Below are positions 4,924-31,913 of a DNA stretch of 33,496 nt, one piece after another; positions within the stretch are counted from its first letter, which is position 1; each line of letters begins with the position of its first letter. A model generated the notes under the pieces. The model searched no databases. It saw nothing but the letters and a program-made list of their open reading frames with translations, and had not been told where the DNA came from. The position numbers and the translations under genes were made by a program. The stretch comes from Halorientalis persicus (GTDB lineage Archaea; Halobacteriota; Halobacteria; Halobacteriales; Haloarculaceae), in NCBI RefSeq assembly GCF_900110215.1, contig NZ_FOCX01000033.1, positions 1 through 33,496 on the forward strand, in the 5' to 3' direction.

Positions 4924-4996
4924 CGCAGGAGTACAGTCATCTCAGTTCCGGAACGTCTCGGAGCGATTGTAGCAACGGTGTGATCAGTCCCGAACG

Positions 4997-6221: not shown

Positions 6222-6309
6222 CGCCTTACTTCGCAGGCGGGTCGGTGGTAAGACTGTCGCTCTGCGTCGATCCGGACGATGGGCTGAGGTAGTCTCCGAT
6301 CGGTTGCGC

Positions 6310-7761: not shown

Positions 7762-7820
7762 CGGTCGAGTCGAAGACGCTCCGGCAGTTGAAGATGACGG
7801 TCCCCCGACGAAGAGAAGAG

Positions 7821-7828
7821 TTTTATCG
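7821..7828 (+). promoter_or_regulatory. TATA box for the DUF4129 gene, leaderless
   Basis: TTTTATCG at 7821-7828 is centred about 25 bp before the GTG at 7850. In haloarchaea transcription starts about 25 bp after the TATA centre, so the transcript would begin at or next to the start codon. This supports a leaderless mRNA and the choice of GTG 7850 over the upstream ATG at 7733. Confidence 0.5.
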
Positions 7829-7849
7829 CGTCCCAGACGTGTTTCGGCT

Positions 7850-13548: not shown

Positions 13549-14664
13549 ATGAACACTGACATACACATCGCAATCGTCCTCGGAACACGGCCGGAAATCA
13601 TCAAACTCTCACCGGTGATCCGGGAATGCGAACGACGCGATCTACCTTACACACTGATCCACACTGGCCAGCACTACTCCGACGAACTCGACAGTGTCTT
13701 TTTCGACCAGTTGGAGCTTCCGGAACCGGACTATCACCTCGACGTCGGCTCCGACTCACACGGTGCACAGACCGGGAAGATGCTCGCCGAGATCGAACAG
13801 GCCCTTCTCGACGTGGAGCCGGACGTAGCTCTGGTTCAGGGCGATACGAACTCCGTCCTCGCTGGCGCTATCGCTGCAAGCAAACTCCCCGTCGAAATCG
13901 GTCACGTCGAGGCTGGACTCCGTAGTTTCGACCGAGAGATGCCCGAAGAGACGAACCGCGTCGTCACCGACCACGTTGCGGACTACCTGTTTGCACCGAC
14001 GGATACGTCGGCGGACAACCTCCGAGACGAGGGGTTCGACGAGAGTCGGATCCACGTTACGGGGAACACCGTCGTCGATGCTGTGCACCAACACCGGACA
14101 CTCGCGACCGAGAAGAGCACGATTCTCGATGACCTCGATCTAACGCCCAGGGAGTACGCGCTCCTGACGGCCCACCGTGCGGAGAACGTCGACGACCGTG
14201 CTCGATTTGCCGACCTCCTCAACGGCGTCGAGCGTATCTCAACTGAACTCGGTGTGAACATCGTGTATCCGATTCACCCGCGAGCACGAAACCGTCTCGA
14301 CGAGTTCGGTCTCGATGTCCCATCGTGCATCGAACTGATCGAGCCACAGGATTACCTAGACTTCCTCGATCTGGAGCAGGCGGCGACAGTCATCCTCACC
14401 GATTCGGGTGGCGTTCAGGAGGAAGCCTGTATCCTCGGTGTGCCCTGTGTCACGCTTCGGGACAGTACCGAGCGTCCGGAGACGATCGACGTGGGAGCAA
14501 ACCGACTGGTCGGTATTGATCCAGACGCCATCCGGAACGGTGCCGTCGAGATGGCCGATGTCGCAACCGACTGGGAGAATCCCTTCGGCGACGGGAATGC
14601 ATCAAAGCGGATACTAACAGCGCTGTGCCAATCACCAGCGGACGATCAGCAGGTCATACAATGA
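13549..14664 (+). CDS. wecB: UDP-N-acetylglucosamine 2-epimerase (non-hydrolysing, WecB-like)
   Basis: The 371-residue protein interconverts UDP-GlcNAc and UDP-ManNAc. It shows VLGTRPEIIKLSPVI at residues 9-23, then TGQHYSDEL, then HVEAGLRSFDREMPEETNRVVTD (residues about 121-143), then the C-terminal donor-binding TDSGGVQEEACILGVPCVTLRDSTERPET (about 283-312). All are strong family motifs, and length is normal. Its TGA overlaps the ATG of the dehydrogenase by 4 bp (ATGA at 14661), indicating translational coupling. With that partner, UDP-ManNAcA is the expected product, a common archaeal glycan building block. Assignment to this exact sugar is inference. Confidence 0.95.
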   Translation: MNTDIHIAIVLGTRPEIIKLSPVIRECERRDLPYTLIHTGQHYSDELDSVFFDQLELPEPDYHLDVGSDSHGAQTGKMLAEIEQALLDVEPDVALVQGDTNSVLAGAIAASKLPVEIGHVEAGLRSFDREMPEETNRVVTDHVADYLFAPTDTSADNLRDEGFDESRIHVTGNTVVDAVHQHRTLATEKSTILDDLDLTPREYALLTAHRAENVDDRARFADLLNGVERISTELGVNIVYPIHPRARNRLDEFGLDVPSCIELIEPQDYLDFLDLEQAATVILTDSGGVQEEACILGVPCVTLRDSTERPETIDVGANRLVGIDPDAIRNGAVEMADVATDWENPFGDGNASKRILTALCQSPADDQQVIQ

Positions 14665-15956
14665 GTACGATATACGTCCACGGACTCGGTTACATCGGAT
14701 TGCCGACAGCGGCGATGTTCGCCAATTACGACCACGAGGTTACCGGATACGACACTGACGAGGCAGTTATCGAAGGCCTCGACGATGGCAACGTCCACAT
14801 CGATGAACCCGGGCTCAGAGCGTTCGTGACCCAGGCGCTCGAATCCGGCAACTTGACTGTGAGTAACGAGGTCGACGAGGCAAAGTATCACATCATCGCC
14901 GTTCCCACGCCGTTCGACGACGAGACCAAAGAGCCGACACTTGAGTACGTGGAGGCCGCCGGCGAAGCTATCGCCCCTCACCTCCGGCCCGGTGATACGG
15001 TTATCCTCGAATCGACTGTTCCGCCGGGTACGACCGTCGAAACGCTACAGCCGGCCCTCGAACAGTCCGGACTAGATGCGGGTTCGGATTTCGCGCTCGT
15101 CCACTGTCCCGAGACCGTCCTCCCGGGGAACATTATTACAGAGCTCAAGGAGAACGACCGCATCATCGGCGGCGTCAACGGTGTATCAACTGAGGCCGCA
15201 GTACGGCTGTACGAGTCCTTCGTCGAGGGCGATATCTATACGACCGAGAACGCGACGACGGCCGAGTTCGTCAAGCTCATCCAGAACACCTACCGTGATG
15301 TCAACATCGCGCTAGCCAACGAACTGGCGCTGATCGGCGAGGACTACGGTATCGACTCCCGTGAAGCCATAGAGATGGCGAACACCCATCCTCGGGTCGA
15401 TATTCACCACCCGGGACCGGGCGTCGGTGGCCACTGTCTTCCGATCGACCCCTGGTTCCTCGGCCAGAATTCGGATAATCTTGATCTCATCGAACGGGCT
15501 CGAGCGATCAACGATGGAATGGCCGATCACGTCGTCGAAACGTTGCGAGACGAGTTGGGATCGCTCGAAGGACGGACGATCGCTGTGTTCGGCGTCGCAT
15601 ACAAAGGGAACGTCGGGGATACCCGACAGAGTCCCGGACTGGATCTCGCACAGGCGCTCCAGAAAGCCGAAGCGGAACTGGCGAGTCCGAAGCCCGACGG
15701 CGGCGTACCACCTTCGGCCGTCGGCGTTCGGCTCCACGATCCGCACGTCGCGGATCAGACCCTCGATCTCGTCGATCGCAAGTCAGCGATCGCCGGTGCC
15801 GACGCAGTCGTGATCACCGCAGATCACGACGAATTCGAGCATCTGGATCCCGCCGCGTTCGCCGACGCGATGGCCGAGCGGGTCGTCGTCGACACGAAGG
15901 ACGTTCTCGACCCGTCCGAGTGGAAGTCGGAAGGCTTCTCAGTCCGCCGTATCTGA
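14661..15956 (+). CDS. wecC: UDP-sugar 6-dehydrogenase, probably UDP-ManNAc dehydrogenase (WecC/AglM-like)
   Basis: The ATG at 14661 gives 431 residues beginning MSTIYVHGLGYIGLPTAAMF with an NAD-binding Rossmann motif. The longer frame from 14625 lies wholly within wecB and is rejected. Catalytic features are FVKLIQNTYRDVNIALANELALI near residues 200-222 (Lys and Asn) and the nucleophile Cys259 in GVGGHCLPIDPWFLG. A C-terminal Rossmann-like domain includes VFGVAYKGNVGDTRQSP. The enzyme oxidises C6 of a UDP-sugar twice with NAD+. The wecB neighbour suggests UDP-ManNAc to UDP-ManNAcA, although UDP-glucose or UDP-GlcNAc dehydrogenase cannot be excluded by eye. Confidence 0.9.
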   Translation: MSTIYVHGLGYIGLPTAAMFANYDHEVTGYDTDEAVIEGLDDGNVHIDEPGLRAFVTQALESGNLTVSNEVDEAKYHIIAVPTPFDDETKEPTLEYVEAAGEAIAPHLRPGDTVILESTVPPGTTVETLQPALEQSGLDAGSDFALVHCPETVLPGNIITELKENDRIIGGVNGVSTEAAVRLYESFVEGDIYTTENATTAEFVKLIQNTYRDVNIALANELALIGEDYGIDSREAIEMANTHPRVDIHHPGPGVGGHCLPIDPWFLGQNSDNLDLIERARAINDGMADHVVETLRDELGSLEGRTIAVFGVAYKGNVGDTRQSPGLDLAQALQKAEAELASPKPDGGVPPSAVGVRLHDPHVADQTLDLVDRKSAIAGADAVVITADHDEFEHLDPAAFADAMAERVVVDTKDVLDPSEWKSEGFSVRRI

Positions 15957-17014: not shown

Positions 17015-17108
17015 ATTTATACATTTATACCAGCATAATGATCACTACGCCAGAATCGTATTGTATGAATAGGCTTATGAACGATAGAACTCTGCTGATA
17101 GATTAATA

Positions 17109-18113: not shown

Positions 18114-20032
18114 AGACTGGGCTGCGAAAGTATTCCACAACCGCGCTAAAAGATTATAAAATACTCTCTATAATCGCTATTATTCTTGGAATAGTCGGAA
18201 CCTCACTCAATATCGTCGTTACAAACCCCTATATTGTGACTTTTCCACCCGCCTTGTTAATTTCTGGACTGATTAGCTATACGACTGAGTACAGAGCAAA
18301 TCAACCTACGCTATCCCCAGATTTAGGTATCAAACCACTACTCTCTCTCCACCTCTTTATTAGCGCACTAATCATAGTCCTATTTAGTTTGACAAAAACC
18401 CGGGGAGAGATAGTCTTACTACTGTCTGCAGTACTCGTTGGCCTAACAGCACTCTCGATCGTCAAAACTGACAACCTCTATTTTCAGCTCGCGCTGATAC
18501 TGTTAACCGGCCTCGTAATTCGTGCAACTATATTATTCTCATCGCCTGTTCCTCTGGGAAATGATACACTCTTCCACCAAAGAATGGCGGGAGAGATTGC
18601 ACAAGCAGGTGATCTTGTTCCCTTAATTGAAGAAAACTCGAAACACTTCGATATACCGCTCTATCACGTGTTTGTCTCATCTGTTGTAATACTAGTGGAC
18701 CTGGACCCACAGCTTAGTTCTTTTATCGGCATAACTATTCCGAGTCTGGTTGTACCAGCACTGGTTGTTACCTGGATAGTAAACCGGCATTTTGACTCGA
18801 CCGCTGCGGCTATCTCTGCTTTCCTGGTCGTCACCACCGATTCAGTCATTCGGTGGAGTATCACACCCTCTACGACTACGTACGGATTCATACTTGGTGT
18901 GCTGATACTAATGACAGTGATTTTGCAGCGGGAGCACAGAATTCGCTATATATTCGCTTTCTTGATTATCGCACTTACCTTCTCACATCAGACTACCAGC
19001 GTTATAACCCTATCAATTGTCATATTATACGCTATTGGAAAGGTTTTGTCAGAAGATGAAATACACATCACTACACCAATTCTATTTGGTCTATTAGTAA
19101 TCGGATCGTTTCTTTTTGCGCGAATTAATGGACCAGGTGGGGACTTGACCGTCCTGGGAAAGCTAGCTTTGGTCATCGGGTCGTCTATTCAATTACTATC
19201 CGTTGACACAGGTGCCAGCTTTCAGATTCCACCGATGGTCAATGCACAACCGGGAGGGACAGCCTCTCTGTCTTCTATTCAAGTCCTCGGACCTGCCCTG
19301 TTATTTCTATTCGGAACGATCGGCTCACTCACTGTTTTAAGATCTGATTCTATTTCGGATCACGCCTGGAACCAGATCTACAAACTTCTCTTGGTTGCGG
19401 CAGGACTCTTTATACCAATATTTATCGGCCCACTAGTTGGGTTCACTCTACTTCTCCCGTACCGCTGGTTCCCATTTGCGTATTTTGTCCTTGCAATACC
19501 AGCGTCTCTCGGGTTGATAGTAATTAGTAAAAAAATTCCGTCAATCTCGTCTGGCTACTTAATTCTGGCATTGCTATTAGTCTCCGGACTTGTTATGGGA
19601 GGAAACTACTTCGGCAGCTATGAGGATCCAGTGTTTGATGAGGATCCGGGCGCGATTCGCTACGAATACACTGAACAAGAAGTGAGTATGTTCTACCATG
19701 CAGCCAGATATTCAACTGGGCCCGTTCGTGGCGACACTGTAGCAACGATAGTGGTAAATCGCCATTTTGACACTAAGACTGCTCGAGGGTTACACTACAA
19801 CTATGACAAGCGGGGGTATTCTGGTGTTCCCCGGGAAACCCTCGTCATTGACCGACCATATGCCCATACAAACCACGCGTGGTATTGGCTAACGTATAGG
19901 GGGAAAACTGGATCAGTCATCGGTGAGTTACCTCGAAATGCACTAAGCTGTGCTGAAGATATCGTTTATGATTCAGGAGGTGAGAGGTATAATGGACACC
20001 TTCTACGCTATACGCGGACTTCCTGCTACTGA
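18110..20032 (+). CDS. Large polytopic membrane protein, GT-C-like
   Basis: The 640-residue protein has about a dozen hydrophobic segments through residue 500, then a soluble extracellular C-terminal domain of about 140 residues. The early loop PLGNDTLFHQRMAGEIAQAGDLVP near residue 148-171 has D152 and H156, resembling the acidic first-loop motif of GT-C glycosyltransferases that use lipid-linked sugars. It is translationally coupled to the sulfatase-superfamily gene (ATGA overlap at 18110-18113). I infer transfer of a sugar from a dolichyl-phosphate donor on the outer face, or a polymerase role. No closer family is identified. It is AT-rich like the rest of the cassette. Confidence 0.6.
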   Translation: MKTGLRKYSTTALKDYKILSIIAIILGIVGTSLNIVVTNPYIVTFPPALLISGLISYTTEYRANQPTLSPDLGIKPLLSLHLFISALIIVLFSLTKTRGEIVLLLSAVLVGLTALSIVKTDNLYFQLALILLTGLVIRATILFSSPVPLGNDTLFHQRMAGEIAQAGDLVPLIEENSKHFDIPLYHVFVSSVVILVDLDPQLSSFIGITIPSLVVPALVVTWIVNRHFDSTAAAISAFLVVTTDSVIRWSITPSTTTYGFILGVLILMTVILQREHRIRYIFAFLIIALTFSHQTTSVITLSIVILYAIGKVLSEDEIHITTPILFGLLVIGSFLFARINGPGGDLTVLGKLALVIGSSIQLLSVDTGASFQIPPMVNAQPGGTASLSSIQVLGPALLFLFGTIGSLTVLRSDSISDHAWNQIYKLLLVAAGLFIPIFIGPLVGFTLLLPYRWFPFAYFVLAIPASLGLIVISKKIPSISSGYLILALLLVSGLVMGGNYFGSYEDPVFDEDPGAIRYEYTEQEVSMFYHAARYSTGPVRGDTVATIVVNRHFDTKTARGLHYNYDKRGYSGVPRETLVIDRPYAHTNHAWYWLTYRGKTGSVIGELPRNALSCAEDIVYDSGGERYNGHLLRYTRTSCY

Positions 20033-20212
20033 GTTTATCTGGACTTAAACTCAAAGTGTATGTGCGCTTGTTCAAAAGCGAGTGATATTCATCTCCTCCT
20101 CCATGTCTAATATGTCTATCTGAATTGGCAAAGTTCATTGCCTCGTTAATATAGCTTCCATACAACACAGATCTCCAAGACAACGAATGTATAGCAGCTA
20201 CTTCATCTAAAT

Positions 20213-21625
20213 ATGAGATTTAAAAGAGAGATAATAACGGTATTCGGCTCTTCGATTCTCCGAAATGTCGCCACTTTTGTTGCTGTGGCCTATTTCTCCA
20301 GAGAGTTGGGCCTGGCCACCCTTGGTAGCTTTTTCCTCTTCCAATCAATTCTGCTGACAGTTTCGATACCAGTTGATTTTGGGATAAAGATCGGAGTTGA
20401 GAAACGCATTAGCGAGGGAAATTCTCCTGCTGATACACTCGCTACAGCAATCGTGGTAAAATTTATTTTACTACTGTTGTCAATCGCTGCTATATTTGGA
20501 TTTAGTGGTGTAATAAACTCTTACGTGGGTGAAAACGTTGCTATCCTACTTGCTATTGCTCTGATTCTGAATGAGTTGGGCCAATTAGGAAAACACACAC
20601 TTCGAGGGGAACAACGGGTGGGGGTGGGAGCGATACTTCAATCCATTCAAACTTTGATTTGGGCCCTATTTGGTGTTGGCCTTACGTTATTGGGTTTCAC
20701 GAATTTTGCCCTCTTTTGGGCTTACCTGATAGGACTGTTCGTTATCTCCTTTTTCTATTGGTATCAGGTAGATACGAAAATAGGGAACCCATCAATATCC
20801 CATGCAAAGGCTATCGTAGGCTATTCAAAATTCGCACTAATCGGATCCCTTGGAGGATTAACATACAACTGGGCCGACATTATACTCTTGGGATTTTTCA
20901 TCTCTCAATCTGCAGTCGGCGCATACGAGGTCGCATGGCGGGTGTCTGCAGCGTCACTGCTGTTAACTAACGCTGTACGCACGACGGTTTTTCCGAAGGC
21001 AAACGAATTAGGCGAAAAAGGCGAGATCGAGCAGCTCGAACGTCTCGTCGAGTCATCCCTGATCCCTTCTTTTTATTTTGTTATCCCTGCTGCGATAGGA
21101 GGTTCAATTATTGGCGGCGAAATTCTATCTCTTGCATTCGAAGCGGAATACCCCTTGTTGAATATCGCACTGGTGATTTTATTGATCGAAAAGGTGCAGA
21201 GAGCCCTTCTGTTACCACTGATTGGGCCAATGCATGGAATCGGTCACGTAGACTATGGTGCATACACGACTATATTTGGACTTGTGACAAATATAATGTT
21301 TAATTTATTACTAATACCTCCGTTCGGAATTCTGGGAGCAGCAGTTGGGACTACTATAGGAAGCACCGCTACCACCACCTCATATGTTTGGTTGCTGTCG
21401 AATGAAATCTCGATATCAATTCCCACCAAAGAAATAATTTGGCTTGGTTTATCTGGGTCAGTTATGGGAGTAGCGATATTTACTGTAAAACCATTATTGC
21501 TCCCAATATCTCTGATTGATCTTACTGGAATTATAATTGGAGCCGCAATAGTATATATAGTAGCATCTCTATCAATTCGCAAAGTGCGAATTGAACTTCG
21601 AAATACTCTCCAATCGATCATTTGA
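20213..21625 (+). CDS. PST-family oligosaccharide flippase (Wzx/AglR-like)
   Basis: The 470-residue protein is hydrophobic throughout, with about 12-14 helices. It starts MRFKREIITVFGSSILRNVATFVAVAYFSRELG, a typical polysaccharide-biosynthesis (RfbX/Wzx) N-terminus with a following GLATLGSFFLFQS. The helix near the middle (VGAYEVAWRVSAASLLLTNAVRTTVFPKANEL) also matches this family. It should move a lipid-linked glycan from the cytoplasmic to the outer face before AglB acts. A 180-bp spacer separates it from the GT-C-like gene, and it is the last + gene before the minus-strand half of the locus. It resembles AglR in general type only; orthology not claimed. Confidence 0.85.
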   Translation: MRFKREIITVFGSSILRNVATFVAVAYFSRELGLATLGSFFLFQSILLTVSIPVDFGIKIGVEKRISEGNSPADTLATAIVVKFILLLLSIAAIFGFSGVINSYVGENVAILLAIALILNELGQLGKHTLRGEQRVGVGAILQSIQTLIWALFGVGLTLLGFTNFALFWAYLIGLFVISFFYWYQVDTKIGNPSISHAKAIVGYSKFALIGSLGGLTYNWADIILLGFFISQSAVGAYEVAWRVSAASLLLTNAVRTTVFPKANELGEKGEIEQLERLVESSLIPSFYFVIPAAIGGSIIGGEILSLAFEAEYPLLNIALVILLIEKVQRALLLPLIGPMHGIGHVDYGAYTTIFGLVTNIMFNLLLIPPFGILGAAVGTTIGSTATTTSYVWLLSNEISISIPTKEIIWLGLSGSVMGVAIFTVKPLLLPISLIDLTGIIIGAAIVYIVASLSIRKVRIELRNTLQSII

Positions 21626-22031
21626 GGACTCCGTTGAAAGCGGTATGCCGAGAGCGGAGAAACCAATCTAGTGAGTTGAAAAAGACGGTAGTTTTATGCT
21701 AGTGAGTACACCGTTATTTGATATAAGATCCACAGTTGTCGCTTGTTCAGAAGGCGACCGCTGGCTGCTAGCGATACCACGCCGCTTCCAATTGACTTTA
21801 AGTCACCGGGAGGACAAGTCCCTAGTCGCTACTCCCCACTTGCGGCGTGACGTTTCTTTTCGCCAGAACTTTTGATATAATATAATTTAATAAGTAACAG
21901 TATATAAGACGAAACGACTGACTGCATCAAAACGGTTACAAACTGTTGCGAGAAAGATTCTTGAGCCGATCTGAACAGCCAAAAGGGTGATACGGATTTG
22001 AAAAGCCTGCTGAGTCACCTTCATGCAAAAA
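21626..22031. other. Intergenic region between convergent genes, with a palindrome-rich patch
   Basis: This 406-bp gap separates the convergent flippase and methyltransferase genes. It holds no long ORF. The stretch 21740-21860 is locally GC-rich and full of inverted repeats: CACGCCGC (21778-21785) pairs with GCGGCGTG (21842-21849). Inside are TGACTT-T-AAGTCA and GGGA/TCCC arms, and just left is CGCT(7 nt)AGCG. It resembles the structured end of an IS200/IS605-type element or a small structured RNA. Both are candidates only. A 14-bp direct repeat TATAAGATCCACAG starts at 21722 and recurs at 22933. Confidence 0.4.
21778..21849. repeat. Nested inverted repeat, possible RNA hairpin or IS end
   Basis: Outer arms CACGCCGC and GCGGCGTG are 8 bp and perfectly complementary with a 56-nt interior. 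Interior arms GGGA and TCCC flank GGACAAG, and TGACTT-T-AAGTCA is a palindrome. The composition contrasts with the AT-rich surroundings. Read on the minus strand, it resembles right-end structures of IS200/IS605-type elements, but no tnpA or tnpB remains are seen. It could act as a bidirectional terminator for the convergent genes, although it lies 150 bp beyond the flippase stop. Confidence 0.35.
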
Positions 22032-22778
22032 TTATGATTCAGGTGGGTCATTCCGAGCTATATAATATTGGTACAGACCAAAATTTGGAGCGAGATTCCG
22101 TTCTGTAATAGCATCAGATATTGGCCGGAGTGTACGTTCTAATCCTGTATTGAAGCCCGGGAGTGAGTAATAACTACCTCGGGCCTCTTTTATTTGCAAA
22201 TCATTTAATATTGCATTTTTCAGTTCCTGAGGTGGTATCCAGTTCTCAACGAGTTGACCATCAGCACTTTCATACGCGCCGGTAAACTCAGCAAAATTAA
22301 GAATAAAATTCATAATACGAGAATATGGGGAATTTGGGTTTGGTGTTGATATAACCAGCCAGCCACCGCTGGTAAGAAGCCTTGTGATTTCTTCGATAGC
22401 AGCTAACTGTAGCGAACGCTCCGGAATATGTTCGATTACTTCAGAGCATACGACAAGATCAAAGGTTCCGGATTTGAATGGTAGGTATGGCAAAGCAGCT
22501 TCTGCAAAAGATGCATCCGTCTTTTCGATTGTTTCCTCCATGAGTGGTGGTTCTGTGATATCAATCGCCATCACATCCTCGAATCGGGTACTGAGAAAGG
22601 TCGTGTTCCGTCCAGAGCCAGAGCCGATGTCAATCACCGAGGCCGTACTGTCAAGGGGGATTTCGTCAACAAGCGAGTGAAGAATTTCATATCTCTGCTG
22701 ATTATCGTATGTAAGATCTGAAGCCTCGGAGAAGTACTCCTGATAAAACTCTCGTGATTGTCGCATCTCCTCGTTCAT
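22032..22778 (-). CDS. SAM-dependent class I methyltransferase
   Basis: The 248-residue protein has the Rossmann-type motif I VIDIGSGSGRN at residues 48-58, an acidic motif II residue in AIDITEPP (D73), and the post-motif FDLVVCSEVIEHIPE (106-120), typical of methyltransferase domain 11/25 proteins. It likely methylates a sugar hydroxyl in the glycan, as methylated hexoses are common on haloarchaeal S-layer glycans. Substrate cannot be read from sequence. It stands on the minus strand, convergent with the flippase. A TTATAT box (minus strand, 22801-22806) is 23-28 bp before the ATG, so the transcript should be leaderless. Confidence 0.85.
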   Translation of the reverse strand: MNEEMRQSREFYQEYFSEASDLTYDNQQRYEILHSLVDEIPLDSTASVIDIGSGSGRNTTFLSTRFEDVMAIDITEPPLMEETIEKTDASFAEAALPYLPFKSGTFDLVVCSEVIEHIPERSLQLAAIEEITRLLTSGGWLVISTPNPNSPYSRIMNFILNFAEFTGAYESADGQLVENWIPPQELKNAILNDLQIKEARGSYYSLPGFNTGLERTLRPISDAITERNLAPNFGLYQYYIARNDPPES

Positions 22779-23104
22779 ATATTATTGGGGGAGTGGAACA
22801 ATATAAGCTAATTTCGACTGTAGAATCTGACCCGGAAACATCGATACAACAGGCTGCGAATATTCGTCTTCGCCTGAGAGCACTCAGGTCTATTTAATGC
22901 GTTACTGCTGGCTATCGTTGAATAGTCACATGTATAAGATCCACAGGTTAACAATCTCTCCGAAATATATAAGATATTAAATCTTAGTAAGACATCCGCA
23001 TGTTTTTCAATCCACACTATTTGTGGGCGCATCACATATAGATGCCCCCAGGAGTATTGGTACTCCCTCTCACCCGAATGGGATATTAGTATCCAAGAAC
23101 AGGT
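22779..23104. other. Spacer between methyltransferase and GT4 genes
   Basis: The 326-bp spacer is AT-rich and contains no supported gene. It carries the methyltransferase promoter at its left end and the second copy of a 14-bp direct repeat (TATAAGATCCACAG, 22933-22946). TGAGAGCACTCA (22876-22887) is a perfect 12-bp palindrome. Confidence 0.4.
22801..22806 (-). promoter_or_regulatory. TATA box for the methyltransferase gene
   Basis: TTATAT (read on the minus strand, within GCTTATATTG) lies at -23 to -28 from the methyltransferase ATG at 22778. The spacing fits a leaderless archaeal transcript. Confidence 0.5.
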
Positions 23105-24286
23105 CTATTCATTGAGTACCGTCCTTTCGTGTTTGTCTACAATGATCTCCCAGTCATAATTCTCAGCAATTTTTAAACCACGTTTGCGGATATCTCGATT
23201 TTTCTCATTAGATTCGATCGCCTGCTCAAGAGTGTTTAACAGCCCTGGCTGAGTTCCATCGTAGAGATAGCCACTAACGCCATGTTCTATAAGGGACTCA
23301 TGGGCAGGTATTTCGGTGGCGATCACAAGACATTCTGCAGCCATATATTCTAGAATCTTTGCTGGGAAGCTGACTTGATACGACTCAATATCTTGAAGCG
23401 GGGAAATGGCGAAGTCAGCTGCGGAGAGTAGTTCCGGGACAGTCTCATGCGGAACTCGCCCCACCCACTCTATGCTATCCGTAACATCGCGGTCTACGGT
23501 CAGTTGTTTAAGGGAACTAACATACGCTTCCGGACCATCTCCAACTACCTTGAACTGCAGATCATGGTTACTGTTTGAGACAGTTTCGATCACATGTTCT
23601 ATGCCCCGGTTCTCTGTAATCGATCCCACATAGACTATTTCCCAACCGGTTTTGTTTTGAGTGGTAGTAGGGTTCTCTCTCGAAAACAAATCCAGATCTA
23701 CACCCATCCCGATTATCGTAGCATCTGACATATCCACTTCATACATCTCCTCAGTTAGACATCTGATTCCATCAGTCAAGCATATAATACGGTCACTCGA
23801 TTTCAAGATGTGACCAATGATCTTCGAATAAAGTTGATACCCGTATTTATATACGTACGATGAAATAGATCCCTCTCTGTCTCTCCCACTCAAAAAGTCC
23901 TGACTCTGCCTGACAGGAACAGATTGCAGCCCGGCTACTAATCTACCAGTAGAAAATTTGGATGCAACCCACCCTTGGATAAGAGACGACTGGAAACAGT
24001 ACACACAATCGTAATCACCTTTCAAAGAGATTATTGTCGACAGAATAGATGATATCAGAATAAAAAGAACCCCAGAAACGATAGGTGTATTACCGACATT
24101 AATCGCTGTCAAGTTCACGTCTTGAAGTGCTTCCCTGTTATGGCCATCGGGGTATTTTCGGCAAATAACACTGATTTCCTGAGATCGGGCCATCCTCTTG
24201 GTTAAGTTATGTGGAACTGTTGTTCCGACTGGATTCGTTACATCCTGATGGTGTATAAATAGGATGCTGTCCTTTTTTTGTACCAT
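23105..24286 (-). CDS. GT4-family glycosyltransferase
   Basis: The 393-residue protein is the usual size for GT4. The N-terminal domain has LFIHHQDVTNPVGTTVPHNLTKRMA, then VYCFQSSLIQGW. The donor domain has WEIVYVGSITENRGIEHVIE near residues 206-225, FKVVGDGPEAYVSSLKQL near 235-252, WVGRVPHETVPELLSAADFAISPL near 262-285, and KILEYMAAECLVIATEIPAHESLI near 298-321, with the E of the EAMA-type motif. It would add a sugar to the growing lipid-linked glycan on the cytosolic face. It has no immediate operon partner; gaps of 223 and 326 bp surround it. AT-rich. Confidence 0.88.
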   Translation of the reverse strand: MVQKKDSILFIHHQDVTNPVGTTVPHNLTKRMARSQEISVICRKYPDGHNREALQDVNLTAINVGNTPIVSGVLFILISSILSTIISLKGDYDCVYCFQSSLIQGWVASKFSTGRLVAGLQSVPVRQSQDFLSGRDREGSISSYVYKYGYQLYSKIIGHILKSSDRIICLTDGIRCLTEEMYEVDMSDATIIGMGVDLDLFSRENPTTTQNKTGWEIVYVGSITENRGIEHVIETVSNSNHDLQFKVVGDGPEAYVSSLKQLTVDRDVTDSIEWVGRVPHETVPELLSAADFAISPLQDIESYQVSFPAKILEYMAAECLVIATEIPAHESLIEHGVSGYLYDGTQPGLLNTLEQAIESNEKNRDIRKRGLKIAENYDWEIIVDKHERTVLNE

Positions 24287-24509
24287 GATGTATTAAGTGA
24301 TCAAGTTACAGCTAGTGTCGCAAAGCCGACTAGAGTTTATCTCTGGTTGATTCAACTGAGATGTCACAGCCCATTGCTGTTTTGGTCGATTGTTGTAGTA
24401 ACTTGTTAACTTAACCTAGTACAGTTAAGCCGAAGAAGTACTGATCAGGAACGGTAAGAGTAACTGCAGAAGCACGTTGAGAGGCGTAGATCGCAAATAC
24501 AGTTCCATA
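24287..24509. other. Spacer between two GT4 genes
   Basis: No ORF or clear promoter is visible here. GTTAACTTAACCTAGTACAG near 24405-24424 is AT-rich. The junction side at 24450-24500 is GC-richer. It may carry a promoter for the 24286 gene, but I could not identify a TATA box with confidence. Confidence 0.3.
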
Positions 24510-25448
24510 TCATTGACGACTCAGTGAACCGGAGAGGACCTCCTTGTATACGTCCAGAATTCTATCACCCATCGTTTCAAGACCGAATTTATCAGCTTCA
24601 TCTCGTCCGTTTGATCTGTCTCCCATAGATAGAACGGTTGTTAGTGCCGTTACTAACTCGTCATTCGTTGAGACGACTTCTGACGGAGTCACTCCACTTA
24701 GCATCTTTCTTATATTCCCTACGTCCCGTGAGATAACCGGGAGGTTACATGCCATAGCTTCTTTGACTGTATTCGGAGACCCTTCATTATCCGAGGTGAT
24801 CAACAGTGCATCGGCGGCGTTCATATAGAATGGCATCTCTTGATACTCGACATCGTATACAGCCTGCAACTTGACCCCTGTTTCCATTTTATCATCGACT
24901 TCATCGACAACGTCCTTTGCAAGTTGATAGTTTTTATTTCCTCTGTAGGGAGCATATGGAAAGAGAACGTGTTTCCCGTCATCCCACCCAACCCTCTCTC
25001 GAGATCTATCTCTGGGGTATGGCTTAAACTGGGCAAGATCAATACCGTGCGGAATAACGTAGGAGTCCACGGGCAGCTGTGAGGCCATCTCTTCAGTCAT
25101 GACAATTACTGCGTCGAAGTATTTTGCAGACTGTTTTCCCACTATGCCGTAGCTATCGTGTACGTCACTTCCCCAGAGTGATAGAACGATAGGCCGGCTT
25201 GGTTGAGCTATTGCGAACGGTCCGGTCAGCCCAAAATTCGCATGGACTATATCGTAGTCTCCCAAGGATTCCCTGAGAACATTTGGGTAGAAAGAGAGGT
25301 AATCGAAACCACTTCGGGAGTCAAATTGGTCTTCTCTCCCGGGTACCTGTAGCGTTACCTGTTCAATCCCTCTAGATTCCAATATAGATACCTGTTGTCT
25401 GTAGAATGGACGCGGGTCAGTAACTAAATTAAGTATTCTCAGGTCCAT
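24510..25448 (-). CDS. GT4-family glycosyltransferase (short)
   Basis: The 312-residue protein is shorter than most GT4 enzymes. It has VHANFGLTGPFAIAQ at about 69-83, LSLWGSDVHDSYG near 88-100, VIPHGIDLAQFKPYPRDRSRERVGW near 131-155, and the donor motif SDNEGSPNTVKEAMACNLPVISRDVG near 219-244. The ATG overlaps the formyltransferase stop by 10 bp (25439-25448), so this is the third gene of an operon with the deacetylase and formyltransferase. I infer that it adds, or acts directly after, the sugar that carries the N-formyl group. The specific donor is unknown. Confidence 0.88.
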   Translation of the reverse strand: MDLRILNLVTDPRPFYRQQVSILESRGIEQVTLQVPGREDQFDSRSGFDYLSFYPNVLRESLGDYDIVHANFGLTGPFAIAQPSRPIVLSLWGSDVHDSYGIVGKQSAKYFDAVIVMTEEMASQLPVDSYVIPHGIDLAQFKPYPRDRSRERVGWDDGKHVLFPYAPYRGNKNYQLAKDVVDEVDDKMETGVKLQAVYDVEYQEMPFYMNAADALLITSDNEGSPNTVKEAMACNLPVISRDVGNIRKMLSGVTPSEVVSTNDELVTALTTVLSMGDRSNGRDEADKFGLETMGDRILDVYKEVLSGSLSRQ

Positions 25449-26236
25449 TTCTCTTTCAAGATTCCTTTTGTATTTTTTAATATAAATAGTAGCACGGGCT
25501 TTCCTTTCGGGGTTGAATACAGCTGCCCAAGAGTTTTGGGTTCCTGAATATCACCATCTTGAACAGCACGTACAGCATCTATGATTACATCGTCTGAAGC
25601 CCGGTATAATTCCTGCTTGATCGACTCCCATGTGTACTGATCACTTATGTCAACAGTCTCTGATGCTGCTACCTTCCCTGCATCAAGTTCTTCAGTGAGC
25701 TGTTGTACAGTGACACCTGCGGTTTTTTCACCATGAATGAACTCCCAGAAGCCCATTGGACGACCACGGTATTCCCGTATATCACCGTGATGGTAGCTAA
25801 GAACACCATACTCTAATTCCGAAAGGATAGGCCCTACCAGGAACCCAAAGCCGAATCGAACACCGACATCGGCATGCTTTGCAGCTTTCTGGGCTGTTTC
25901 CGTTGGAATCTTTTGTTTCCAGCCATCAATTATTTCAGGTTTGACCGATATTTTATACAGATTGTCTGCATCTATGATTGTTTTTATAGGGACTTTTTCT
26001 TCACCCTTGATGTTGTCCGATGCTAAAGTGCTAACTATGTTAGCAACTGCCCACTCACGGATCTCGATACCACGTTTCACCGTCTCAAATAACGTCCGGG
26101 TATTCTGGTACTTGCTATACACTACCATTTTAATATCGATCCATTCACACTCTTTCAATTGTTCTACCGTATTTGCCTGCCACTGACAAACCTCTTTTCC
26201 ATCAACCAATAAACATACATCCATACAATTACTCAT
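25439..26236 (-). CDS. Formyltransferase-fold protein, likely sugar N-formyltransferase
   Basis: The 265-residue protein has the methionyl-tRNA-formyltransferase-type catalytic pattern. YHHGDIREYRGRP at residues 148-160 corresponds to NxHxSxLPxYRG, and GVTVQQLTEELDAGKV at 174-189 corresponds to the TGVTxHxMxxxxDxGxI loop with its catalytic Asp. The usual Asn is Tyr/His-shifted, so activity should be tested. It would move a formyl group from N10-formyl-tetrahydrofolate (or an archaeal equivalent) to an amino sugar. It overlaps the deacetylase by 8 bp and the GT4 by 10 bp. An alternative ATG at 26224 would remove four residues. It is not the housekeeping Met-tRNA enzyme, which archaea lack. Confidence 0.75.
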   Translation of the reverse strand: MSNCMDVCLLVDGKEVCQWQANTVEQLKECEWIDIKMVVYSKYQNTRTLFETVKRGIEIREWAVANIVSTLASDNIKGEEKVPIKTIIDADNLYKISVKPEIIDGWKQKIPTETAQKAAKHADVGVRFGFGFLVGPILSELEYGVLSYHHGDIREYRGRPMGFWEFIHGEKTAGVTVQQLTEELDAGKVAASETVDISDQYTWESIKQELYRASDDVIIDAVRAVQDGDIQEPKTLGQLYSTPKGKPVLLFILKNTKGILKEKWT

Positions 26237-27164
26237 ACATATCGGGAAGTTCTGACATTGTTTTAATCATAAGATCACTCTCCTGTATACCATCTAAATA
26301 ATCAAAGTATTTATCGATGACTTCCCACTGGTGCTCATTGCTTAGGTCGTACAGATGACACCACAGGTGGAGTGGTGTCCCTGAAAGAAATGCACGTTTG
26401 GTTGACTTTTTCAGATACTGTAGATGGATCTTTTTACGTAGTGAGACTGGAATCGGTCGAAATACAGGGTGAATCTTGCTGGACTGTCCAGCAGGGAGTG
26501 TCCCCGCGGTCAAAGACGGATATCTTGTACAGTAAGTCTCGAGGATACCATCACTAAACTTCGGCTCCCACATCGGATGGGGACCGATAGTTAATTGCTT
26601 AAGTCGGTGTAGTGGTGTGAGAGTCTTATTCTCCTTAGCATACCGTGCTACTTTGATTCCGTTCTGTTTGAGGGTCCTATTAGAAGGTTGCCGGTGGCGA
26701 GGCGGAACAAAAGACCTTACTACTTCATTGTGTAGATGTTGGTGAAGTTCCTGTATCTGTTGCAGTTCTTTTTCTATTAGCTCATTTGAAGCATCATCAC
26801 AGAGGATATGGGAGAACGTATGTGTACATAATTCGTGATTAGCATTCGATCCAAGAACTTTATTCGCTATGTCTGGTGCATAGAAGAGAGGGTCAGACCT
26901 CTTGTCGGTTCCTGAATCTGCCTGAAACCACCCCTCTGGATATGGTCCATCATGATTCCCATCACACTCAGATAAAAGGAGATGCCCAACGATATCAAAT
27001 GAGATAGGTATATCAATTTCCTCACTCTTTTCTATAATTTTGTCAAGATACTTTCGCTCTTCTTTCCCATCCTCTGACAAGTGGCTGCTTTTACGGATAT
27101 CATGAACACCCCATCCTAGTTCAACTTCGATACTAATTGTTAACGTTGACATGGTAAGTGCCAA
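26229..27164 (-). CDS. Polysaccharide deacetylase-like (CE4/NodB-type) protein
   Basis: From ATG 27164 the protein has 311 residues; an alternative ATG at 27152 is possible. It starts with ISIEVELGWG, the strand that in this family carries the DD/ExE-type catalytic acid, followed by HELCTHTFSH at about residues 110-119 (H-x4-H metal site) and FVPPRHRQP near 152-160 (PxRxxxG-like). It likely removes an N-acetyl group from a lipid-linked or nucleotide sugar. Overlap with the formyltransferase stop (8 bp) makes a deacetylate-then-formylate pair likely. The TATA box at 27187-27194 favours the 27164 start. AT-rich. Confidence 0.75.
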   Translation of the reverse strand: MALTMSTLTISIEVELGWGVHDIRKSSHLSEDGKEERKYLDKIIEKSEEIDIPISFDIVGHLLLSECDGNHDGPYPEGWFQADSGTDKRSDPLFYAPDIANKVLGSNANHELCTHTFSHILCDDASNELIEKELQQIQELHQHLHNEVVRSFVPPRHRQPSNRTLKQNGIKVARYAKENKTLTPLHRLKQLTIGPHPMWEPKFSDGILETYCTRYPSLTAGTLPAGQSSKIHPVFRPIPVSLRKKIHLQYLKKSTKRAFLSGTPLHLWCHLYDLSNEHQWEVIDKYFDYLDGIQESDLMIKTMSELPDMYE

Positions 27165-27186
27165 ATTGGAAGCATTCTAGTTTGTA

Positions 27187-27194
27187 CATATAAT
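27187..27194 (-). promoter_or_regulatory. TATA box for the deacetylase operon
   Basis: ATTATATG (minus strand of CATATAAT at 27187-27194) lies 23-30 bp before ATG 27164. This fits a leaderless transcript for the deacetylase-formyltransferase-GT4 operon and favours the longer start. Confidence 0.5.
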
Positions 27195-27228
27195 CTTATT
27201 GTCTATACATACATTAATAGGTTGGTAT

Positions 27229-29598
27229 TTAATTTGGGATTCGCTCAGGCCCGGAATTGTCACCCTGGGACGGATCTGTGTCTACTCTTTCCCCAGACAA
27301 TATATCACTGACGGTAACATTGTATGTTGAACCTCTGACCTCATAACTCCCCGGATATGAAACGACTACATGGAACTCACCGGTTGAGTCCACGTTAGTA
27401 CTCCTTCTATAGGATATTTTTTGGGACTCAATACGGACAGTTGTATTTATAGCAATCGTTGTGTTAGGAGTCGCAGTTCCGACAAATCGCACTCCCGGCA
27501 CTACTCGGAAAGCTTTTTTCGAACCATTGTTAGTTTGTCCGATAAACATGAAGTGACCTGATCCCTCCACGGACTCACTTGTGCTTCCGAATTGGTGGTG
27601 GAGGAGTTGATGAACTGAGTCTCTGGGTGAATCTCGCTGCTCTGTGACGATGAATCCGACACGGTCCATGTTGTTTCGGGCCCACTGGTCCGGATCCTGG
27701 TTCAGTAATAGGCCATGGTATGTTCTCCGGGCATAATCGTATGATTTGGACTCCCCGTTGACGAAGTAATTATAGACTCTGTTATCGCCCCAGTTACTGA
27801 GTACATAATTACGAGGATACTCTAACTCCTGCTGATCGGTATATTCAGAAATTTGCATCGACATCTGGTATGTATCCTCATCAACGGAGATTTGAGCTGT
27901 CTTCACGTACGTCTGCAATAGTCCCATACCGGCGAACAACAGAAATACTACAGCAAGCAGAGCGATCGAATGACGGTCTGGGAAGTGCAAATTCCGCGTT
28001 TTGTTACTGAATATCTCCTTTGATCGGGCGAGATCGACGCTTTCTGAAATATGGACTAGTCCAACTCCGGCGAAGATAGCGATGAATAACGAAAGTTCTC
28101 CTGAAAACCGTAATTTGACAATGGAGAGAGCGAACAGATACCATGTAAATGATACTGGGACAAGCCATGTAGGCTGACTTTCTCTGTATACTCGCAAAGT
28201 CACCAACCCAAGGAATGGGAGTGCGAGAAAGAGGAACAGACCGAATACCAAGACTGGCCCGAAAATCGAACCGAGCTCACCTGAGAATATTGATTGTGTC
28301 TCGGCAATATTATTCCGTACGGTAAGAAAGGTTACAAGCTGGTCTAAAGATCCTCTCAGGGCGGGCGCTCCGACCCAAATCGCCATGGGTCCTACAATAA
28401 TCATCGATACAAAAATCGCGGATAACTCACTGGCAGTTCGATCATATCGGAGCCAGGTTTCACCGAGTATAACTGCGCCCAACCCACCGACAAACAGCAA
28501 TAGAGGAGCAATTCCACGGTATAGGGCCATCCAATCAAGATAGTTGTAAGCCAGAAACGTAGGGACACTCCCAATAAACAATCCAAGCAATATTGACTGA
28601 TTATTTAATAATGGCGAGATACCTGATCGAACGTCATCTAACACACGCCCAAGAACGAAAATACCAATCGGAACCAGAAGCAATGGACCACCACGCCAAG
28701 CGGCAGTCTGTGTGAATACGCCAATTCCAAGGCAAATAATTCCCAGTGGCGTGACCCAATTTGGCCACGCTCTCTCGGATTTGTTTGCGGCCAATACTGT
28801 AAGCGCGAGTGCCATCAGCCCCAGCCAAACGAAGTCGAACGCGTGGTGGTCGCCGAACCCAAGGGCTGTCCGATAGGCGTGGGCGGGTGTGACCGCCAGC
28901 GTCACCACCGACGCGAATCCGACCCGCCTGTCGTTCGTGACGGTAACTGCCAGGAGATACACCAGTACCCCGGAGAGCACAGCGGCGATCACTGGATACC
29001 ACGCCAAGACAAGCCCCGACGCGGTCTGGCCGTCGCCGAGCAGGCTCGCGGCCCACCAGGTGACCACAATCAACAGGATGTCGCTGTTCGCCGCGTCCAC
29101 GGGCAGCCGCGTGAGCGAGCCGGGATCAAACGCCTGGAGATCGCTCGCGAGCAAGGTATCGATCCAGTAGCGGTAGTAGTAGGGATCGTTGCCCGCCAAT
29201 ACGACGTGTTCACCGCGAAAGACGCTGTTCCACATGAAGACGATCCGCACTAGCGCGACGAAAGCCAGCGCACCACCAACCAAGAGGACCACCCGTCGAT
29301 CTACTTCCGGAACAGAGAGATCCGACAGCGAAAACCCTTGGTCGGGTTCTTCGTCGGGCTCGACCGACTCGCCGTCGAGTGCGGCACGAATGGCCTCTCT
29401 ATCCGCTACTTGATACCCGTCGTCGACTTCCTCGACAATACCACGTGAGACGACTTCACCGAACGTACCGGAGTCAAGCGAGATTTCGTCGAATGTCCAA
29501 GGTTCCTCGTCATCGACGTCCAGAAGCGCTTCGAGATCAGATTCGAGGTCGGGTTTCTCTGCGAGGAGCGAATCTACCACCTCGCGTACGTCGTCCAT
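27229..29598 (-). CDS. aglB: Archaeal oligosaccharyltransferase STT3/AglB-like, divergent
   Basis: The 789-residue protein has a cytosolic N-terminus (1-100), then about 13 helices, then an extracellular C-terminal domain. The first-loop acidic motif is GNDPYYYRYWIDTLL (136-150; D138). GDHH lies at 249-252, and the EL5 segment is AETQSIF (432-438), with R497 in KLRFSGELSL as a candidate sequon-binding arginine. In place of WWDYG there is SNWGDNRVYN (601-610). The catalytic fold is intact by eye, so transfer of lipid-linked glycan to Asn in NXS/T is likely. The N-terminus resembles a winged-helix domain. GC drops near 28,780 (residue about 273), so the gene looks chimeric. It is the terminal enzyme of the locus. 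Confidence 0.85.
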   Translation of the reverse strand: MDDVREVVDSLLAEKPDLESDLEALLDVDDEEPWTFDEISLDSGTFGEVVSRGIVEEVDDGYQVADREAIRAALDGESVEPDEEPDQGFSLSDLSVPEVDRRVVLLVGGALAFVALVRIVFMWNSVFRGEHVVLAGNDPYYYRYWIDTLLASDLQAFDPGSLTRLPVDAANSDILLIVVTWWAASLLGDGQTASGLVLAWYPVIAAVLSGVLVYLLAVTVTNDRRVGFASVVTLAVTPAHAYRTALGFGDHHAFDFVWLGLMALALTVLAANKSERAWPNWVTPLGIICLGIGVFTQTAAWRGGPLLLVPIGIFVLGRVLDDVRSGISPLLNNQSILLGLFIGSVPTFLAYNYLDWMALYRGIAPLLLFVGGLGAVILGETWLRYDRTASELSAIFVSMIIVGPMAIWVGAPALRGSLDQLVTFLTVRNNIAETQSIFSGELGSIFGPVLVFGLFLFLALPFLGLVTLRVYRESQPTWLVPVSFTWYLFALSIVKLRFSGELSLFIAIFAGVGLVHISESVDLARSKEIFSNKTRNLHFPDRHSIALLAVVFLLFAGMGLLQTYVKTAQISVDEDTYQMSMQISEYTDQQELEYPRNYVLSNWGDNRVYNYFVNGESKSYDYARRTYHGLLLNQDPDQWARNNMDRVGFIVTEQRDSPRDSVHQLLHHQFGSTSESVEGSGHFMFIGQTNNGSKKAFRVVPGVRFVGTATPNTTIAINTTVRIESQKISYRRSTNVDSTGEFHVVVSYPGSYEVRGSTYNVTVSDILSGERVDTDPSQGDNSGPERIPN

Positions 29599-29769: not shown

Positions 29770-30700
29770 GTGCTTGTGACAGGAGGTGGGGGGGTTTATT
29801 GGTTCGAATCTGGCGAACCACCTAGCGGCCGACAACGAGGTGATCGCGCTGGACGACGGCTACCTCGGGACGCCCGAGAACCTGGACGACAGCGTGGAGT
29901 TCGTTGAGGCGAGCGTCCTCGAGGTAGACCTCCCCGTCGACGTGGACGCCGTCTTCCTCCTGGCGGCGCTGTCCTCGCTCCAGATGCACGAGGACGACCC
30001 ACAGCGTGGCGCTTCGCGTCAACGTCGAGGGGTTCGTTAACACCGTCGAACAGGCCCGCTAGGCCGGGTGTGAGACAGTCGTCTACGCCTCGACTTCCTC
30101 AATCTACGGCAGTCGGACCGAACCCTCGCCCGAGGATATGCTCGTCGCCACGAACACCGGTTACGAGGCCTCCAAGCTCGCCCGTGAGCGCTACGGCGAG
30201 TACTTCGCCAACTACCACGACATCAATATGGCGGGCCTGCGCTTTTTCTCGGTCTATCAGGGCTACGGCGGCGCGGAACAACACAAGGGCGAGTACGCCA
30301 ACGTCATTGCGCACTTCGGAGACGACATGGCCAACGGCGAGTCGCCGGTCCTGTACGGCGACGGCGAGCAGACACGGGATTTCACCACGCCGACGACATC
30401 GTGCGCGGCATCGAGACGACCGCCGACCACGAGTTGACCGGCATCTACAATCTGGGCACTGGCGACGCCTACTCGTTCAACACCGTCGTCGAGATGCTCA
30501 ACAACGAACTGGGGACCGACATCGACCCCGAGTACGTCGAGAACTCGATCCCCGAGGACGTGTATGTCCACGACACCTGCGCGGACTACTCGAAGATCCA
30601 CGCGGCGACGGGCTGGGAACCCGAGGTCGATTTCGAAGAGGGCATCGAGCGCGCCTGTGCCCAGTATACCAATACTGCCCCGGACTCAGGTGTCGGTTAG
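29770..30700 (+). pseudogene. NAD-dependent sugar-nucleotide epimerase/dehydratase pseudogene
   Basis: An extended short-chain epimerase can be rebuilt across three frames. It has CVLVTGGGG-FIGSNLANHL (NAD site), then VNVEGFVNTVEQA, SSIYGSRTEPSPED (catalytic-region Ser), TGYEASKLARERYGEYF (YxxxK), LRFFSVYQGYG and IYNLGTGDAYSFNTVVEML. Four lesions break it: one extra G in a run of seven (29779-29785), an extra T near 30013, a TAG at 30060-30062 (probably from CAG), and a missing C near 30384. The normal relatives act on UDP-glucose, galactose or related sugars. Its start is uncertain. It overlaps the end of the regulator gene by 15 bp. The intact ancestor may have served this glycan locus. Confidence 0.85.
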
Positions 30701-31135
30701 ATAATCATCCAGACGCTGTTGCATCTCGAAGCGTTCGGTTTCGATATATGAGTCAATCTCGTCTTGCCAATCGGCATCTTCCGGCGACACCGACTGAAGT
30801 ACAGCATTTTCTGCATTCCGCACACGTCGAACTGCATCTCGTCTCGCCATGTGATACTGACGGAGGTTTTCGTCCTGAGCGAACTCCCATACTTCCTGCC
30901 CGATGTCGGTCAGTTCATACACTTTTTTTGAAACACCATTTGGACGCTGCTCCAGTGTCTGTTCCCACAGTTCATGCTGAACGCCGACTTTGAGACGATC
31001 GTGGACAGTACTCGAACTTAGTAACAATTTTTCGCGAAGGTCCGTATGTCGCTGGGGTTCGTGGCCTATTTCGACTACGATCTCCATTGCTCCCTTCCTT
31101 TGGAGGAACTCAATAATCTCCTTGTCCTCAATCAT
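30686..31135 (-). CDS. Winged-helix DNA-binding regulator
   Basis: From ATG 31135 the product has 149 residues; the frame upstream to 31213 looks non-coding. MIEDKEIIEFLQRKGAMEIVVEIGHEPQRHTDLREKLLLSSSTVHDRLKVGVQHELWEQ gives a winged helix (first segment is the start of the fold, recognition helix about residues 35-50), followed by a wing (VSKKVYELTDIGQEVWEF). Similar proteins are called HxlR/MarR-like helix-turn-helix regulators in haloarchaea. The C-terminal part is charged and helical. It may regulate the adjacent glycan genes, for example aglB, but no evidence beyond proximity exists. Effector is unknown. Confidence 0.8.
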   Translation of the reverse strand: MIEDKEIIEFLQRKGAMEIVVEIGHEPQRHTDLREKLLLSSSTVHDRLKVGVQHELWEQTLEQRPNGVSKKVYELTDIGQEVWEFAQDENLRQYHMARRDAVRRVRNAENAVLQSVSPEDADWQDEIDSYIETERFEMQQRLDDYLTDT

Positions 31136-31304
31136 TGTGTGATTTGAACATCGTCCGTTGCCGAAGTACTTTTGTGTTGCGAGCCAATATACAATATTGC
31201 TTGATTCAAACATAGTACTCTAGCAAACACAATCCGGCAGAGATTAAGTACGATATCATCACGGCTAACGATGCTCTCTGCCACTCCCTTTCGCTCCAAA
31301 ATCT

Positions 31305-31802
31305 ATGTCATCTGATGTACCTGCGGTTGCGGAAGCCCTGGTCACTCACGCAGAAGCAGTCTGTGACTACGCTGATCACCTTTGGCGGGTCGTCGGGAAC
31401 CTCTCGGTTCCAACGGACCTACTGACAGACACACGAGATACGGCGAAGGTCACGTATAGTACCGAGCAGATGGTGCGCTGTTTCCTGTACGCAGAGATTC
31501 GAGAATTCTCACACAATGGATTGGCTGACCGACTCCATACGCGTCCGGCATTGTGCAAACAGTTTGGGTTCACGACGCCGCCGACACAGCAAACTCTCTC
31601 GGAGACGTGGCGGGCCCTTGATGACGAGACACAGCGTGTTATCGACGAATCGGCAATTGCTATCGCCCACGTCGCACATGAGAACGACGTAATCTCGGAG
31701 GCACTTCTGCCGACAAGTCCCGACGAAGACAAAAGAGACACCGACGAACAAGCTGCCAAGCAAGACCGCGAGTGGAAGCGCCAGAAGGCCACGAAGACCA
31801 TC
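31305..31802 (+). pseudogene. N-terminal part of an interrupted transposase
   Basis: The reading frame starts MSSDVPAVAEALVTHAEAV and runs about 166 codons before the inserted element; the stop is created within the insertion. The sequence continues after the insertion (33198 on) with ATKTIELARRYAFPVFDSGRADNRTYDDKAILEMVARICTMGES. The two parts form one protein of at least 250 residues that resembles a haloarchaeal DDE transposase, with the VFDSGRADNR acidic residue visible. Family not assigned. It is non-functional as it stands. Confidence 0.65.
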
Positions 31803-31867
31803 CGTCTTTAGCTAAGAGCAGAACCACGTGACAGCGACGGCTTATCGAGGCTTCTTTTCGAGAGGAA

Positions 31868-31904
31868 TGAGGAGGCGACGGCTGTGCACACCAAAGCCTC
31901 CTCA
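31868..31904 (+). repeat. Hairpin just upstream of the ISH8 transposase start
   Basis: TGAGGAGGC (31868-31876) and GCCTCCTCA (31896-31904) form a 9-bp stem with a 19-nt loop, ending 9 nt before ATG 31914. IS4-family elements often have a hairpin that shields the start from read-through transcripts. This site fits that role. Confidence 0.5.
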
Positions 31905-31913
31905 TCGAGAATC

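Follow-up and report, generated by a model that had tools for sequence, protein, structure and literature searches.

A deacetylase-like gene followed by a formyltransferase-like gene constitutes a conserved two-gene unit, which we describe here from a 33,496-nucleotide stretch of the genome of the haloarchaeon Halorientalis persicus (assembly GCF_900110215.1, contig NZ_FOCX01000033.1, positions 1 to 33,496), referred to below as the window. On this contig (C69 of genome G000, which has a total size of 4.87 Mb), the minus strand carries three open reading frames (ORFs) that resemble a CE4 deacetylase, a formyltransferase and a GT4 glycosyltransferase, respectively (Table 1). A sequence-only reading of the window had stated that the three genes overlap by 8 and 10 bp, and the ORF coordinates confirm it: the deacetylase and formyltransferase genes share 8 bp, the formyltransferase and GT4 genes 10 bp. 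The family labels and the gene order given in that reading are supported by Pfam as well. We propose, at about an even chance of being right, that the first two genes form an N-acyl exchange pair, by which an N-acetyl group is removed from an amino sugar and a formyl group is put on. That is, the CE4-like enzyme would hydrolyse the N-acetyl group of an amino-sugar residue, such as an N-acetylhexosamine (HexNAc) or N-acetylhexosaminuronic acid (HexNAcA) on a nucleotide or dolichyl-phosphate carrier, and the enzyme of the Formyl_trans_N family (PF00551) would then formylate the freed amine, with N10-formyl-tetrahydrofolate as the donor. A glycosyltransferase, here the overlapping GT4 enzyme, would use or extend the product for the surface glycan made by the surrounding low-GC island, and the neighbouring STT3-like oligosaccharyltransferase may attach it.

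The comparison set consists of 195 related genomes, in which the window formyltransferase is matched in 81 genomes and the deacetylase in 84. The deacetylase matches split into 27 places above 210 bits, termed the subfamily here, and 83 places of at most 110 bits, termed distant relatives. A formyltransferase adjoins 17 of the 27 subfamily places, while about 0.01 would be expected by chance, and it adjoins none of the 83 distant relatives. At the loci that were read, the deacetylase gene is always upstream of the formyltransferase gene on the same strand, and at 10 loci, the window included, the two genes share exactly 8 bp. The pairwise distances of the two proteins are also correlated (r = 0.94 for 17 pairs, with none of 5000 permutations as high), where the 17 paired cases all come from one archaeal order and are not independent of each other. 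In addition, both genes are adjacent in G331, a held-out genome outside the 195. Given the 17 of 27 places against the chance expectation, together with G331, the adjacency of deacetylase and formyltransferase goes beyond chance. Across 294 genomes sampled more widely from the phylum, 12 have the formyltransferase group (E <= 1e-25) and eight the deacetylase subfamily (>300 bits), all of them from the order of the window, and the deacetylase copy in G427 has an in-frame stop. A search of genome contigs returned one relative, locus L033; L046 denotes this same stretch of contig. In L079, a different protein overlaps the formyltransferase gene by 4 bp, with a relative upstream in L077; it has no Pfam family above cut-off, so that its CE4 label is a motif reading. 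It should be noted that the choice of genes in GC-rich loci is crude, and that the neighbours given here are relatives detected with phmmer or blastp.

The genes at about 17,100 to 27,200 have a GC content of 43 to 49%, compared with 54% for the window and about 60% for wecB, wecC and a DUF1616 gene. The lower GC content suggests that this stretch is an acquired glycan island. Such islands reshuffle, and the three enzymes could consequently be unrelated neighbours in a horizontally acquired island that share no common pathway. Set against the frequency of the pairing and the co-divergence of the two proteins, this explanation appears highly improbable; it is disfavoured for the deacetylase and the formyltransferase, and holds for the GT4 gene.

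The formyltransferase is not the only partner of these deacetylases. Four of the 27 subfamily members adjoin instead a GNAT of the Acetyltransf_9 family (361 aa in L091), and none is located beside both partners. Among the distant relatives, 22 of 83 adjoin such a GNAT, compared with 0.08 expected by chance; in total, 27 of the 94 GNAT places are near a deacetylase relative. The subfamily of the window has thus switched partner, to the formyltransferase, and the group pairs with an N-acyltransferase either way. Acyl exchange is favoured, since the hydrolase is recurrently paired with an N-acyltransferase. More tentatively, at somewhat less than an even chance, there may be a portable haloarchaeal cassette for N-acyl exchange, composed of a Glu-x-Glu deacetylase, which would take N-acetyl off a sugar already present in the glycan pathway, and an interchangeable second gene, encoding either a formyltransferase with Ser in place of the catalytic Asn (Ser-type) or an Acetyltransf_9 GNAT. 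Elsewhere in the H. persicus genome, on contig C70, a deacetylase relative with Asp-x-Glu adjoins an Acetyltransf_9 GNAT (L043:1627-4233).

A free amine for formylation could also be made by an aminotransferase, and DegT-type aminotransferases were therefore counted within 10 kb of the formyltransferases, with only strong matches (>140 bits) considered. None was found near the 17 paired formyltransferases, while two of 23 unpaired Ser-type members and seven of 19 weaker, mostly unverified formyltransferase matches have one nearby (Fisher p = 0.008 for 0/17 vs. 7/19, and 0.048 against all unpaired cases). The 19 weaker matches include G106:C13, and G103 was left out because it lay outside the aminotransferase search. 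With no aminotransferase near the pair, the amine would come from elsewhere, as deacetylation would supply it. A different arrangement is seen in L042:9037-10803, also on contig C70 of G000, where two adjacent PF00551 genes, one with the standard Asn-x-His motif and one of the Ser type, lie some 3 kb away from a gene for a DegT aminotransferase.

The pathway of lipid A modification with 4-amino-4-deoxy-L-arabinose also combines a PF00551 formyltransferase, ArnA, with a CE4-like hydrolase, ArnD, both acting on the same sugar nitrogen, and ArnD is a deformylase. There, an aminotransferase provides the amine, and formylation precedes deformylation; ArnA keeps Asn-x-His, which the family described here lacks. 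By the same logic, the window formyltransferase could act first, on a sugar amine; once a glycosyltransferase has placed the formylated sugar on a lipid carrier, the CE4-like enzyme could deformylate it, leaving a free amine and no formyl group in the end product. Such an order would agree with the outline of the three gene kinds, which resemble ArnA, ArnC and ArnD, with the relationship of the formyltransferase to ArnA, one of its nearest relatives of solved structure, and with the assignment of ArnD to the CE4-like (NodB) proteins in the accessible text of PMC10967932. However, the 17 paired loci have no aminotransferase nearby, a GNAT replaces the formyltransferase beside the same deacetylase subfamily, although a deformylase would not need one, and the glycosyltransferase is not conserved with the pair. 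We therefore consider the Arn-type order quite unlikely. Deacetylation followed by re-acylation is favoured, not proven, by the missing aminotransferase together with the GNAT swap.

The deacetylase-like protein reaches the Polysacc_deac_1 model barely above its cut-off (Table 1), and its gene probably starts with the ATG at 27152 instead of the TTG at 27164, since its relatives start with MxxxTISIE. Like the CE4/NodB de-N-acetylases, it keeps the metal-binding His pair of motif 2 (His115 and His119, both in 22/22 sequences and aligned to the H-x-x-x-H of 2j13), and it has a His in what may be the motif 5 region. Pro155 is found in 22 of the 22 sequences, Arg156 in 21, and His266 and His270, two invariant residues near the C-terminus, in all of them, where the match to motifs 3 and 5 was judged by eye. 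Where CE4 enzymes have Asp-Asp in motif 1 and RPPYG in motif 3 (as given in the accessible text of PMC10967932), all 29 subfamily members compared have Glu-x-Glu in motif 1, with Asp-x-Glu in four of four more distant relatives, and the putative motif 3 region reads PPRH. A search of the PDB with the single deacetylase sequence gave chance-level matches only, and a search of viral contigs with it gave no relatives.

An Asn-His-Asp catalytic triad is the defining feature of N10-formyl-tetrahydrofolate formyltransferases. Two of its members, His149 and Asp185, are invariant among the 41 aligned formyltransferases, and the closest profile matches of the window protein are all N10-formyl-tetrahydrofolate enzymes (E = 3.6e-16 to 4iqf, a Met-tRNA formyltransferase). 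The motif is His-His-Gly-Asp where the standard is His-x-Ser; residue 152, following His149, is Asp in 38 sequences and Asn in three. On sequence, both the deacetylase and the formyltransferase are therefore variants, whose predicted active sites depart from the standard catalytic motifs. A FolD-type gene in the genome indicates that a one-carbon folate route is present, which could supply the formyl donor.

Several observations weigh against the exchange of acetyl for formyl on a glycan sugar. On the side of gene content, the formyltransferase is absent beside 10 of the 27 subfamily deacetylases, and in the four subfamily cases paired with a GNAT the two genes are on opposite strands. On the side of the proteins, the Asp pair of CE4 motif 1 is absent from the deacetylase subfamily, and the catalytic Asn occurs in none of the 41 formyltransferases: where Met-tRNA formyltransferase and ArnA have the Asn in the alignment with solved enzymes, 38 sequences have Ser and three have Gly. 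The PF00551 match covers the C-terminal, catalytic half only (profile positions 72-181). Both AlphaFold2 models are unusable: the deacetylase model, built from two sequences, has a mean pLDDT (the confidence score of the prediction) of 45.3, and the formyltransferase model, built from three sequences, one of 36.7, values too low for a (beta/alpha)7 barrel or a folate pocket to be read from them.

The loss of the Asn, the Asp or Asn at residue 152 throughout the alignment and an N-terminal half beyond the Pfam profile would also fit a pair that does exchange acyl groups on a sugar, in which the PF00551 enzyme has a different donor or a different group to transfer. Some activity remains in PurN variants that lack the Asn, and the invariant His149 and Asp185, as well as the uniform nature of the closest profile matches, speak for a formyl donor, so that we regard another group or donor as unlikely.

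The amine could also belong to an aminolipid, a cofactor or another small molecule, with the pair entering glycan islands only in some species. Eleven of the 17 paired loci have no relatives of the window glycan genes within about 10 kb (with the window proteins as the only queries), and the pairs in L047-L053 look like stand-alone two-gene units beside unrelated genes. Moreover, phmmer (E <= 1e-4) detected no AglB relative in the 41 other neighbourhoods scanned, so that the link to an N-glycan rests on the window. On the other hand, the pair is located among relatives of glycan genes in the window, L033, L054, L058, L061 and L063, with a sulfatase gene overlapping the deacetylase gene by 4 bp in L058, and genes for glycan modification often lie apart from glycan clusters. 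A non-glycan amine thus seems quite improbable, and an amino sugar remains our preferred substrate of the N-acyl exchange. Our guess, from faint hints, would be a HexNAc or HexNAcA residue. The wecB-wecC-like pair of the window is a possible source of the N-acetyl sugar, and wecB/wecC relatives are also located near the formyltransferase in L079 and L081.

Genes with a GINT1_N domain, which belongs to a glucosamine-transferase family, adjoin the formyltransferase in L073 and L074. The search of viral contigs with the formyltransferase returned one locus, L098 (IMGVR_UViG_3300044718_000027), in which positions 2575-4278 encode a formyltransferase-like domain fused to GINT1_N. The fused protein shares a variant His-His-x-Asp motif and 25% identity with the window formyltransferase, and differs from it in being a single fused protein, with a PF00551 score of 11.7 bits that is under the cut-off. 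This contig also carries apparent phage tail genes.

The STT3/AglB-like gene is located 64 bp upstream of the deacetylase gene, and scores 92-110 bits with the archaeal STT3 model TIGR04154, against a cut-off of 450. The same genome has a main AglB on contig C52, with 888 bits, and a third divergent copy on C64. The neighbouring gene was therefore rejected as the main AglB of the organism, and by its sequence it is a divergent second copy.

The sequence-only reading had the sugar deacetylated, re-acylated with formyl and then used or extended by the GT4 enzyme. Its logic of N-acyl replacement is strengthened by the comparison of genomes, and its third step is not borne out. The GT4 protein does contain a Glycos_transf_1 C-terminal domain (Table 1), but its relatives (E <= 1e-30) occur in 96 of the 195 genomes, and among the matches listed, only five places (G000 C69 and C70, G106, G179 C6 and G194) were judged by eye to have a subfamily deacetylase or a Ser-type formyltransferase within some 5 kb. 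The GT4 gene was consequently rejected as an integral third step; it is a generic haloarchaeal glycosyltransferase gene, whose overlap with the pair is incidental.

The sequence-only reading had also treated N-formyl sugars as not yet established in haloarchaeal glycans, which is wrong. According to the accessible text of PMC6137143, the S-layer N-glycan of Halorubrum sp. PV6 carries 5-N-formyl-legionaminic acid as its cap, as shown by mass spectrometry, and this sugar is also present on VP4 of the virus HRPV-1; HrrPV6_1050 is the presumed sugar N-formyltransferase. Set beside the window by description, that system also places a presumed sugar N-formyltransferase in an N-glycosylation cluster of a haloarchaeon. 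However, its amine comes from the aminotransferase LegC in a nonulosonic-acid route, and the accessible part of PMC6137143 mentions no deacetylase. No NeuB/LegI-type synthase, CMP-sugar synthase or other legionaminic acid gene was found by Pfam among the 27 ORFs scanned of the 73 listed for the window, the rest of the genome not having been searched. Another haloarchaeal sugar N-formyltransferase, borne on the plasmid pHILL-c2, was predicted in 2024 (PMC11431627, in its accessible text). By description it also has glycan-gene neighbours, but it was matched to Rv3404c, a dTDP-4-amino-4,6-dideoxyglucose formyltransferase, and the main text, as far as accessible, gives it no deacetylase partner (PMC11431627). 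The wbmS and wbmT genes of the Bordetella O-antigen were considered as a model pair as well, and found no support, since neither deacetyl nor formyl appears in the accessible text of PMC3849452. Consequently, a claim to the first N-formyl sugar in a haloarchaeal glycan fails, and the better result is a conserved gene pair, proposed for N-acyl exchange, in which two standard catalytic motifs are altered. Judged by listings, no description of a paired deacetylase and formyltransferase in archaea was found in the literature, of which subscription journals were covered in part.

The coordinates of the pair and of related features are listed in Table 1. Pfam also identifies a DUF354 protein and GT2 enzymes in the window, alongside the GT4 enzymes and the flippase. 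DUF4350, MoxR-type AAA, DUF58 and DUF4129 genes adjoin the island at 2796-10042, and transposase-like ORFs (DDE_Tnp_1, DUF772) are located at 30686-33188, past the STT3 gene at the end of the window.

Table 1. Positions of the two-gene unit and of related features in the window, with model scores (Pfam cut-offs in brackets where available).
Feature	Coordinates	Strand	Evidence
CE4/NodB-like putative N-deacetylase, Glu-x-Glu subfamily	26229..27164	-	PF01522 (Polysacc_deac_1) 24.7 bits (cut-off 23.1); motif 1 E-x-E
Formyl_trans_N-family putative N-acyl(formyl)transferase, Ser-type	25439..26236	-	PF00551 43.6 bits (cut-off 26.1); profile matches Met-tRNA formyltransferase, ArnA
GT4-type glycosyltransferase, overlapping, outside the conserved pair	24510..25448	-	PF13692 39.9 bits, PF00534 (Glycos_transf_1) 39.1 bits (cut-off 26.4)
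Divergent STT3/AglB-like oligosaccharyltransferase, next gene upstream	27229..29598	-	TIGR04154 110 bits; Pfam AglB_L1, STT3
wecB-wecC-like pair (UDP-GlcNAc 2-epimerase, UDP-sugar dehydrogenase)	13549..15956	+	PF02350 381 bits; PF03721 164, PF00984 85, PF03720 74 bits
Oligosaccharide flippase-like protein, same cluster	20213..21625	+	PF13440 59 bits
Second GT4-type glycosyltransferase	23105..24286	-	PF00534 80.7 bits

If the proposed exchange takes place, the pair would make N-formyl sugars without a dedicated aminotransferase, in another way besides the known one. Haloarchaea would then vary the N-acyl group of their surface sugars by means of a movable two-gene cassette, the second gene of which can be swapped. 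This may be of relevance to their viruses, since glycan caps influence virus binding in haloarchaea, and sialic acid lowered the production of HRPV-1 on the PV6 host (PMC6137143, in its accessible text). In addition, the replacement of Asn by Ser in a formyltransferase and of Asp by Glu in a CE4-like hydrolase would give enzymologists new cases.

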